A DNA stretch of 64,000 nucleotides from Hyphococcus luteus (GTDB taxonomy: Bacteria > Pseudomonadota > Alphaproteobacteria > Caulobacterales > Parvularculaceae), in NCBI RefSeq assembly GCF_002943565.1, contig NZ_PJCH01000015.1, forward strand, positions 186,001-250,000, in the 5' to 3' direction. Each line of letters begins with the position of its first letter. The first letter of the stretch is position 1. Under the pieces are notes generated by a model. It did not search any database. It had not been told where the DNA came from and was given only the letters and a program-made list of their open reading frames with translations. A program made the position numbers and the translations under genes. Positions 49,610 to 57,842 of the stretch are shown one piece after another.

Positions 49610-50006
49610 TCGGCCGGCTCCTAACAGCGTGCGGGCCCCGACGACGAGGCCCTCTAAAACTGCGGCGACATATAAGGGGGGCTGGCCCCAGCGGCAATGC
49701 CGGCCCGGAAAATCCGCATAATCAAGCCATTACCGGTCGCCGCAATGATTAGAAAGAATGATAACATGATTAGATGCAATGTTAGTCTTTCCTCATTTGG
49801 GGATAGGCTTGATTTCGCTCATAGAGGACTATTTTCACAGTCATTATGCTCGTTAACTTGCCATAGATGACAAGAGCAGCTACCGCCTAGGTGGGCTGTT
49901 GCCCAAGCGTGACAGTTGTTGCGTATTTTAAGATCCGCGGACCTCCGGGAAGGCAAGGGACAGCGAGAACGCTGTCGTCGGATAGTTCGCACTGGAGAAG
50001 ACTAGA
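49610..50006. promoter_or_regulatory. Divergent glyA/mucR regulatory region, AT-rich
   Basis: A 397-base region with no gene. From about 49740 to 49870 it is strikingly AT-rich for this genome. ATGATTAGA occurs twice, at 49745 and 49766, 21 bases apart, with AATGATAAC between. Two helical turns apart suggests a protein-binding region, perhaps for MucR itself, which binds AT-rich DNA. Confidence 0.5.
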
Positions 50007-50471: not shown

Positions 50472-51057
50472 CGACGTCAATCTTTTCGCGCGTGACGGCA
50501 CGCGGCGGCGCAGGAAACGCCGCCGTGCGCGAGTGCGTGCGCCCGATAGCCACCATTTAAGGACTGGCGCGGCCCGACCGGACCGCATCGTCCGTAAAGA
50601 GTCCAATTTCAGCAAAAATTTTTGTGAATTTTATCGGGCGGCCCCTGCCCCGTTATTAACCCGCGCAGTCTTGAAGCGGGACGCATGCTGTCCCCTTCTG
50701 GAACGAGGCCCGCCGGCGCGCAACGCCCCGAAGGCCGATGCGGGTCCGCGCCGGCGCAGCGCGCCCTTGGGCAAGCGCGGTCGCATGTCTTGATATTGGT
50801 GGACAATTGCGGATTTCGGGGCCGGAAACGATCCTTTCGACACGCTCTTTGATGGCCGTTTTCCCCGCCGGGCAGGCGCGCGCGCCAAGCGTCGCATATA
50901 GATACAATTGTTGCTTATTCAGAAAGCGGAAACCGTATTTTTTCACGAATAATCAACCGCTTATAGAAGCTTTTACCCTGCTGTTTAGGCGTTTTTTAAA
51001 GACGCGCCCCTAGTCTGCGTCAACAACATAGTTGCGTTTTTAGGGGTTATAGAGCTC
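50472..51057. other. 586-base gap between mucR and sciP
   Basis: No frame here has a ribosome site or recognised motif. A GC-rich hairpin (about 50494-50525) follows mucR without a clear T-run. The part from about 50890 to 51057 is AT-rich and should hold the sciP promoter. A GAGTC (GANTC methylation) site is at 50599. I could not find a clean TTAA-N7-TTAA CtrA box. Confidence 0.45.
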
Positions 51058-51348
51058 ATGTCTGTCGTTGCTGACAACGCCGCGTCACCGGGAAAGTCCG
51101 ATGCCTATGTCATCGGACCGGACGGCACGCCGCTCACCTTGCAGGACTTGCCGCCGCCAACCACCAAGCGTTGGGTGATCCGCCGCAAGGCCGAAGTCGT
51201 CGCCGCCGTGCGCGGCGGTCTGTTGACGCTTGAAGAAGCGTGCAACCGCTACACGCTGACGGTCGAAGAATTTCTCTCCTGGCAGAAAGCGATCGATCAT
51301 CACGGTCTGCCGGGCCTGCGCGCGACGCGCGTTCAGCAATACCGTTAA
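51058..51348 (+). CDS. sciP: CtrA inhibitor SciP (DUF1153)
   Basis: A 96-residue protein nearly identical in layout to SciP: YVIGPDGTPLTLQDLPPP, TKRWVIRRKAEVVAAVRGGLL, EACNRYTLTVEEFLSWQ, AIDHHGLPGLRATRVQQYR, a helix-turn-helix. In Caulobacter it binds CtrA and DNA and blocks CtrA-activated genes. Its presence supports the alphaproteobacterial assignment. A terminator follows. Confidence 0.95.
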   Translation: MSVVADNAASPGKSDAYVIGPDGTPLTLQDLPPPTTKRWVIRRKAEVVAAVRGGLLTLEEACNRYTLTVEEFLSWQKAIDHHGLPGLRATRVQQYR

Positions 51349-56137: not shown

Positions 56138-56258
56138 CCCTCTCCCCTTTGGGGAGAGGGTTAGGGTGAGGGGGAGCAAAGTTTGCAGTAAAATCAGCAT
56201 CCTTCCCCCTCACCCGCAATCGCTGACGCAATTGCGACCTCTCCCCAAAGGGGAGAGG
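56138..56258. repeat. REP-like palindromic element A
   Basis: Palindromes at 56138-56160 (CCCTCTCCCC-TTT-GGGGAGAGGG) and 56238-56258 (CCTCTCCCC-AAA-GGGGAGAGG) flank inverted GGGTGAGGGGGA copies (56164-56175 and 56204-56215). It sits between PAP2 and serS. Common dispersed element type in alphaproteobacteria. Confidence 0.75.
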
Positions 56259-56276: not shown

Positions 56277-57842
56277 TCACTTCAGCGCCTCGATCTTTTC
56301 CGCCCCGCCCATATAGGGTTTCAATGCGTCCGGCACCGTGACGGAGCCGTCCGCCTCCTGATAATTTTCCAAGATCGCGACAAGGGTCCTCCCCACCGCG
56401 AGGCCGGAGCCGTTCAGCGTGTGGACGGGCGCGATTTTTTTCTTTTCGCCCGCGACTCGGTAGCGGGCGTTCATGCGCCGCGCCTGGAAGTCGCCGCAGT
56501 TCGAACAGGACGAAATCTCGCGATATTCCCCCTGCCCCGGCAGCCAGACTTCGAGGTCGTAGGTCTTCTGCGCCGAGAACCCCATGTCGCCGGTGGAGAG
56601 CACCATGGTGCGGAAAGGCAGTTCGAGCCGCTTCAAGACTTCCTCGGCGCAGGAGACCATGCGTTCGTGTTCGTCTTTTGATTTGTCCGGCGTCGTGACG
56701 GAAACAAGTTCGACTTTCGAAAACTGGTGCAGGCGGATCATGCCGCGCGTGTCGCGCCCGGCCGAGCCCGCCTCGGAGCGGAAACACGGCGTCCAGGCGG
56801 TGAAGCGCAAGGGCAGTTCTTCCTCGGAAAGAATGTCGCCGGCGACGATATTGGTCAACGAGACTTCCGCCGTGGGGATGAGCCAAAAATCTGCTAGTTT
56901 TTCTTCTTTTAGTGCAGTTCTTATTATCTCAAAAAGTGATCTGAATCGGCTGGTGTCGTGCCCTAAAATTTCTTGTTGTCGCCTTATATGAGAAAGAGTT
57001 TCCGCCAGTTCAGATGTCAGAGCATCACGAGCTTGCAAACCTCGCTCTAGTTTTATCCGATTTTTTAAATATATAACCTTATCTTCTAAGGATTCTACGA
57101 ACTGTGTTCGCTCCTGAACCGCATCCCTCGCCTCTTGAACTGCTTCTTCGATACTCTCATGAAGTCCCGCAGTGTTGCGAATACCAAACAAGTCATCAAT
57201 GAATTTCGGCAATTGCCCCGTGCCGTAAAGCGCATCGTCGCGCACCAATAAGGGCGGCGCGCATTCCGTATAGCCGAACTCGCCGGTATGAAGATCGAGC
57301 ATAAAGGACGCGATGGCGCGTTCGAGCCGCGCAAGCTGGCCCTTCAGCAGAACGAAACGCGCGCCCGACATTTTCGCCGCGGTCTCGAAATCCATCTGGC
57401 CGAGCGCCTCGCCGATGTCGTAATGCTCCTTGGCGTCATTGAGGCGCTTGGGCTCGCCCCATTTCCGCACCTCGACATTCGCCGTCTCGTCCGCGCCTTC
57501 GGGAACGTCTTCGGCGGGCAGGTTCGGCAGGCCGGAGAGAATCTCGCGGATCGCATCCTGCTTTTTCTTCTGCTCGGCTTCCGCCACCGGCATCTGCTGT
57601 TTGATGCTTTCCACTTCCTCGCGCAGGCGGTTGAATTCGGCTTCGTCGCCTTTCGCCTTGGCCTGGCCGATCAGCTTGGAAGAGGCGTTGCGCTTTTCCT
57701 GCAGCTCGTTGAGGGTGACGGTGCATTTGCGCGCCTCTTCGTCGAGGGCGAGGATTTCGCCGGAACGGGGCTCAAGCCCCCGGCGGGCGAGGCCGGCGTC
57801 GAACGCGTCCGGATTGTCGCGGATATAACGGATGTCGAACAT
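56277..57842 (-). CDS. serS: Seryl-tRNA synthetase with an internal ~100-residue insertion
   Basis: A 521-residue enzyme; usual length is about 425-430. The N-terminal coiled coil (about 28-105) that grips tRNA, motif 2 ([17 protein letters not shown]) and motif 3 ([19 protein letters not shown]) are all present. Between DDLF (to residue 219) and FWLIPTAEV (from 319), where bacterial relatives have a short loop, there are about 99 extra residues rich in charged heptads ([34 protein letters not shown]). The DNA of this part is visibly AT-rich. The frame is kept, so the enzyme should work. Confidence 0.95.
56889..57185 (-). other. AT-rich in-frame insertion within serS
   Basis: Codes for residues 220-318 of the synthetase. 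Composition drops to what I judge by eye as about 40% GC, against well over 60% around it, starting near 56880 and fading by about 57210. It predicts long helices. No intein motifs, no transposase and no terminal repeats are visible. Acquisition by transfer is inferred. Confidence 0.8.

Follow-up and report, generated by a model that had tools for sequence, protein, structure and literature searches.

The loop of alphaproteobacterial seryl-tRNA synthetase (SerRS) that lies between DLF and (W/Y)LIPTAEV is an exchange slot. Domains that are mostly unrelated to one another are recurrently exchanged at this single site of serS, and we infer that their benefit lies in escape from an antagonist: they would shield SerRS from something that binds it. 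We put the probability of this reading, slot and shield together, at roughly 40%.

The first-pass annotation of the serS gene studied here had described a foreign, recently gained, helical insert that is not an intein, and this part of its reading stands. What has to be given up is the notion of a single odd gene, since the loop turns out to be a slot for many mostly unrelated domains across Alphaproteobacteria. Domains so varied in sequence and predicted fold speak against a single conserved partner or a single change in tRNA reading, both of which had been considered as functions, and agree better with the third suggestion, a resistance-like change of the surface.

The serS gene and its insert

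The window, by which we mean the whole 64-kb stretch of DNA analysed, carries serS on the minus strand (56277..57842) as an intact ORF of 521 codons (521 aa), as annotated at first. A second serS was looked for, as had been advised, and one copy was found in the genome. The protein is a member of the bacterial SerRS family TIGR00414 (502.6 bits joined, against a cut-off of 301.65) and scores 89.4 bits with PF02403 and 144.8 bits with PF00587. The closest named relatives of the window are Marinicaulis/Hyphococcus, of the family Parvularculaceae.

Insertless relatives have a loop of six residues (KTTGDH type) where the window SerRS has, between DDLF and WLIPTAEV, an insert of 100 codons (56886..57185, minus strand; residues 220-319), the ends of which were fixed by comparison with these relatives. 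The first-pass annotation had the position right but counted 99 residues (56889-57185), leaving out the final Phe before the Trp. Directly after Trp320 comes LIPTAEV (56862..56882, minus strand), unchanged in the alignment; it contains the TxE motif, which we take to be the serine-binding motif. The catalytic residues that flank the insert are likewise unchanged in an alignment with P0001 and phage SerRS.

The composition of the insert is foreign, as had been noted. Its GC content is 0.42 (GC3 0.29), and sliding GC runs at 0.40-0.44 in the insert versus about 0.60-0.66 around it. This makes it the most AT-rich patch within any long ORF (>=200 codons) of the window, 3.7 SD under the window mean. 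GC at codon positions 1/2/3 is 0.60/0.36/0.29 and all other frames are closed across the segment, which indicates that the insert is translated in the serS frame, as first proposed, and that its source was an AT-rich coding sequence. Two other AT-rich patches in the window, at 49651-49950 (GC minimum 0.39) and 50851-51090 (0.41), both lie outside ORFs of >=200 codons.

It appears that the insert was gained recently, again in line with the annotation: the nearest relative (L010), 91% identical to the window gene outside the loop, has just six residues there. Presence of the same insert in all relatives, with normal composition, had been named as the mark of an ancient domain; the window insert was found in none of the relatives listed. 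The five serS codons that adjoin the insert (IDDLF, residues 215-219; 57186..57200, minus strand) are AT-rich and have diverged from those of L010, while both sides are near-identical, and in insert-bearing genes as a group these codons drop in GC3. Judging from these sequence features, they are probably the edge of an imported tract.

Just past the 3' end of serS, the window contains a perfect 21-nt inverted repeat (56139-56159 and 56238-56258, 78 nt apart), which is REP-like.

An AlphaFold2 model of the window SerRS, built on 33 rows, predicts two helices in the insert, in agreement with the long charged helices first annotated. One spans residues 225-265 (57048..57170; block pLDDT 60 at the start, then 77-91) and the other residues 269-312 (56907..57038; block pLDDT 90 falling to 72), both encoded on the minus strand. 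They may form an antiparallel hairpin, as read off the secondary structure rather than the coordinates. The SerRS models have a pTM of 0.57-0.58, and residues 197-219, before the insert, have pLDDT <50, so the models do not allow the insert to be placed relative to the tRNA or the active site. A structure comparison with the whole model returned SerRS chains (one a SerRS fusion) among the best 50 rows and was uninformative on the insert. The P0038 insert is predicted by AlphaFold to fold differently, into a mixed beta-alpha domain with a helix that is preceded by three strands and followed by two (block pLDDT 58-86).

The AlphaFold2 model shows the N-terminal tRNA-binding helical arm (residues 27-104; 57531..57764, minus strand) as helices 27-64 and 67-104, and the two insert helices together have about the same length. 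The possibility that the insert duplicates this arm was rejected, as BLASTP gave no alignment with residues 27-105 at E up to 100; the similarity is one of helix lengths.

A recurrent insertion site in alphaproteobacterial serS

Among 183 extracted SerRS loops, 117 have 5-11 residues and 59 have at least 39, with 7 of intermediate size. Twelve of the 190 loci could not be extracted at first; five were later recovered and the remainder are other SerRS types or fragments. Because the loci are ordered by how closely they resemble the window gene, the locus list cannot serve as a frequency, and the SerRS tree is enriched in insert-bearing loci. In the loop-extraction, profile-match and GC3 lists, some genes occur twice with different locus ids.

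In the window's own genus, the loop was extracted from 24 genomes; 8 of them have inserts, which belong to eight different clusters. A set of 60 relatives gave inserts in 14 of 49 extracted serS genes (the 24 just mentioned and 25 more). Six genomes of this set (G039, G048, G051, G054, G055 and G059) show 0-15 nt between the two matched pieces, hence no insert; the gene is only partial in G001 and G035, and the other three genomes had no serS match. Of the 289 genomes matched in an even draw across the class Alphaproteobacteria, at least 17 have inserts of 29-116 aa. The listing by place in this draw covered matches down to 1e-166; genomes whose best E was weaker than about 1e-135 were re-examined and yielded no further inserts, and the match in G315 is not a SerRS. 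Finally, a sample of 150 Pseudomonadota included 47 Alphaproteobacteria, of which 8 have a split serS; each of these proved to carry an insert when read out (47-100 aa). A split serS was found in none of the 101 remaining Pseudomonadota that gave a match, the match of G500 being only partial.

A metagenome-assembled genome labelled Luteimonas (Gammaproteobacteria; L060) has a 48-aa insert in the same serS loop. This reflects either spread past Alphaproteobacteria or a misbinned contig.

Clustering of 68 non-redundant inserts (25-116 aa) gave 50 clusters, 45 of them singletons; three more inserts were found late and are outside this count. The biggest cluster has 10 members, whose hosts belong to several genera and at least two orders, and another has 6. 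Insert family A2 is taken to include L027, which did not cluster with its other five members; L052 joined in the clustering and may be spurious.

The inserts are largely confined to one place in the enzyme. An alignment of 281 trimmed SerRS cores has four other positions with inserts of >=8 aa, in one row each, while this loop accounts for 70 rows with >=24 aa. The comparison with other synthetases covered two, thrS and aspS. No internal insert of such size was found in thrS (59 of 60 relatives matched, two of which, G010 and G016, have the gene broken up between contigs) or in aspS (58 of 60 matched). Compared with the matched part of the model, the matched place is longer by no more than about 16 codons in thrS (G010 and G016 aside) and about 19 codons in aspS.

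A SerRS with 35-41% identity to the usual one, and thus very different, is present in several genomes of Alphaproteobacteria (L164-L170 and L235-L239). This divergent enzyme is probably the result of gene replacement.

Exchange and origin of the inserts

Comparison of closely related genes indicates that the cassettes are swapped by recombination. The SerRS of Hyphococcus aureus (P0002), with a 47-aa insert, differs from the insertless P0011 at four positions outside the loop, and the cores of P0015, P0038, P0118 and P0121 have 96-98% identity with insertless neighbours. Inserts of different clusters are also found on close cores, as in P0118/P0121 (96%), L036/L037 (95%) and L046/L054 (95%). 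In the pair L227/L228, the flanks are 95% identical with a dS of 0.48, and the inserts, which belong to one family, are 33% identical with a dS of 2.14. Since the dS of the insert so greatly exceeds that of the flank, the insert must have an older history than the surrounding gene, which means that it was replaced by recombination. Presence of an insert is nevertheless partly inherited, as suggested by the number of state changes on the SerRS tree, which is lower (44) than after shuffling (63 +/- 2.6; the lowest of 200 shuffles gave 54).

GC3 averages 0.53 in inserts versus 0.80 in flanks and is lower in 64 of 65 cases, a statistic that ignores relatedness. The five codons 5' of the inserts change in GC3 by -0.22, versus -0.04 in insertless genes (Mann-Whitney p 2e-6; 56 and 107 genes, relatedness ignored). 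Little GC3 is lost in the codons 3' of the inserts (p 0.27 for five codons and 0.028 for twelve, again ignoring relatedness). Profiles of three insert families, each run against 119 genomes, gave 2, 4 and 8 confident matches, all 14 of them within serS; seven weak matches of one family profile (E 0.004-0.007) lie outside serS and were taken as chance. Because the 5' edge codons lose GC3 and the confident profile matches are found only in serS, the donors of the cassettes were most likely other serS genes that already carried one. This is also the simplest reading.

A search with the window insert in the context of the full-length protein gave 411 candidates, none of which matched the insert region at E<=1e-3. 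When six inserts of one family were used as a profile against 5.8 billion proteins, in a search that scores only candidates of similar length with shared short words, 16 candidates were obtained and none at E<=0.01. The window insert had no match in phages, plasmids, IMG/VR or PDB sequences. Searches of Pfam, PHROGs, NCBIfam and PADLOC with 48 inserts returned nothing above chance: the best E among them was 5.7e-4 (phrog_11209), which is chance level for 48 queries, and the window insert reached 0.0026 (JetB, PADLOC) and 0.007 (phrog_10922), with no known defence domain or phage family.

Two further origins were considered and rejected. Out-of-frame capture of another gene is not indicated, the alternative frames being open no oftener than after synonymous shuffling. 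Transposon insertion would leave a target-site duplication and a common element, neither of which was found in the 68 inserts and their 50 clusters; indeed, target-site duplications or direct repeats at the insert junctions do not exceed those of permuted pairs.

Selection on retained inserts

Five species of genus g17 have in common an 82-aa insert whose composition (0.61-0.70) resembles that of the host (0.61-0.71). The low-GC rule thus has exceptions among old inserts such as this one. In the closest four species (L222-L225), dN/dS of the insert is 0.03-0.16 (NG86) and its dS is of the same order as that of the flank. The insert dN/dS is 0.055 in the pair L195/L196 and 0.18 in L038/L172. 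In the fifth g17 species and in more distant pairs, the insert diverges faster than the flank. The low dN/dS values indicate that kept inserts are under purifying selection and so are working protein rather than junk.

SerRS genes of phages

SerRS matches were found in 25 of 50,697 phage records. Seven of these are giant Brevundimonas phages, which thus bring their own SerRS; the others include phages of other hosts. The four Brevundimonas phage enzymes read out (L204-L207, from phages Gurke, Papperlapapp, Domovoi and Marchewka) have the six-residue loop and no insert, and TGE replaces TAE in three of the four. Among the Brevundimonas-labelled serS genes of the similarity-ranked locus list, 7 of 7 have an insert. 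The link to phages is a lead only. An IMG/VR scan with an insertless SerRS gave no match. Citromicrobium phage RXM is stated in its paper to encode a SerRS; no Citromicrobium phage is among the 25 matched records, so it is not counted here.

Phage SerRS was considered as a donor of the inserts and rejected, the six enzymes read out (L204-L207, L218 and L219) having loops of 6-11 residues. In L204-L207, the SerRS gene lies near a gene for a GcrA-like cell-cycle regulator. In phage Marchewka, one of the four phages inspected, serS is followed directly downstream by a gene for an HNH endonuclease (PF01844, E 2e-4; L207:5173-5526).

Proposed escape from an antagonist and rival explanations

According to the reading that we prefer, lineages time and again acquire domains of 25-116 residues at the loop, exchange them and lose them, all by recombination, the cassette of the window being a predicted pair of long helices of AT-rich origin. 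The cassette would form a surface appendage beside the catalytic core and leave aminoacylation working, while blocking or altering the docking of an antagonist that binds SerRS, possibly a phage protein or the toxin of a competitor. A bulky domain would then be an advantage almost regardless of its fold, and selection would favour variants and later replace them as the antagonist changes. Escape is suggested by the different folds predicted at one place, the fast turnover, the absence of such inserts from thrS and aspS and from serS of the other Pseudomonadota sampled, and the constraint on cassettes where they are kept. Several points argue the other way. The inserts may be tolerated rather than selected; cassettes kept for long with matching composition, as in g17, fit a stable function equally well as an arms race; and phage SerRS is rare and found in phages of other hosts as well. 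In an extended version, SerRS would be a battlefield on which a circulating pool of shield domains is kept diverse by a largely clade-specific antagonist, possibly linked to the giant phages with their unshielded SerRS. We offer this version tentatively, as somewhat unlikely.

An alternative model assumes no benefit to the organism. Cassettes would spread by homologous recombination of serS through its conserved flanks, and the loop would simply tolerate them. Neutral tolerance of this kind covers most of the pattern, and mostly unrelated sequences with different predicted folds are what a permissive loop would accumulate. It does not cover the purifying selection in kept cassettes, nor the restriction to one gene and clade, since a permissive loop alone leaves the absence of inserts from thrS, from aspS and from serS of the 101 other Pseudomonadota unexplained. 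We hold it to be unlikely, while taking it seriously.

The cassettes might instead be lineage-specific regulatory or moonlighting domains, each binding a cellular partner of its own. The stable, conserved cassettes of g17 and g231 would agree with such a role, for which there is a precedent in human insertion II, reported to contribute to DNA binding (PMC4057782). The turnover within cores that are 95-99% identical, together with the 45 singletons, is too fast and too diverse for mostly dedicated partners, and we consider this explanation quite improbable.

A little more doubtful still is a conflict at the level of DNA, in which the site is cut by a nuclease, for instance a phage-encoded homing endonuclease associated with phage serS, and the captured or recombined sequence destroys the nuclease's target. 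The exact conservation of the site would be expected in this case, and the HNH gene right after serS in phage Marchewka could encode such a nuclease. However, synonymous changes would be a cheaper means of resistance, and the inserts are coding sequence in the serS frame with codon periodicity. In addition, the confident matches of insert families are only in serS, the junctions have no direct repeats, and one in four phages inspected possesses the HNH gene.

An ancient domain that was lost many times and has diverged past recognition could account for the old families. A few families do span genera or orders (the clusters of 10 and 6 members, and one family found in 8 of 119 genomes), and the state changes on the tree are under the shuffled level. 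As a general explanation it is already contradicted by the foreign GC3 of 64 of 65 inserts, by near-identical cores with and without an insert, by an insert dS far over the flank dS in L227/L228 and by the differing predicted folds; we regard it as very improbable. Hardly credible is an intein, a transposon footprint or an assembly artefact, which a foreign-looking in-frame segment in an essential gene might call to mind: the insert starts with Gly and ends with Phe, followed by Trp, and shows neither intein junction residues nor a match to a Hint or nuclease domain, bearing out the first-pass annotation, there is no target-site duplication, and the intact frame and codon periodicity, with inserts recurring at this site across many independent genomes, make an artefact unlikely.

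Implications and relation to known systems

Exchange of unrelated domains in an essential single-copy synthetase, on the scale of near-identical genes, is a pattern that normally marks conflict. Escape being our preferred reading, the pattern speaks for a so far undiscovered SerRS antagonist in Alphaproteobacteria, and the search for it becomes testable by comparing near-identical strains of which some have a cassette and others lack one. The serS loop is also a natural domain-insertion site for use in protein engineering, and the exchange at serS calls for caution with serS-based trees.

Accessory domains in tRNA synthetases are known, and inserts in these enzymes are usually treated as old, conserved and lineage-defining. 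An interchangeable slot in an essential synthetase was not found described; for SerRS, no description of an exchange slot was found in open-licence PMC full text, a scope outside which most subscription papers fall.

Target domains of HsdS and the tips of polymorphic toxins are modular hypervariable loci that are exchanged via conserved flanks. The serS slot shares with them the conserved gene ends, the exchangeable and unrelated middle and the high turnover. However, those are genes of defence or attack, whereas serS encodes an essential enzyme of translation. Whole-gene resistant synthetases, such as the mupirocin-resistant IleRS2 and the albomycin-resistant SerRS2, are similar in that a change of synthetase is acquired horizontally, plausibly for escape. 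Unlike these, where the whole gene is involved, the serS slot swaps a loop domain in a single native gene. Rickettsia palindromic elements are in-frame insertions in genes and, like the cassettes, are in-frame additions to alphaproteobacterial housekeeping genes. They form repeat families in many genes, in contrast to the one gene, one site and 50 clusters of the serS slot.

Insertion II of human SerRS (G254-N261, catalytic domain) is reported to be close to the active site and of negligible importance for aminoacylation (PMC10817482, PMC4057782). This metazoan insertion likewise lies in the catalytic domain, and the residue numbers in the two papers would place it in the same region, shortly before the TxE motif. 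It has 8 residues and is conserved in its lineage, whereas the bacterial slot holds 25-116 residues that are mostly unrelated and are exchanged.
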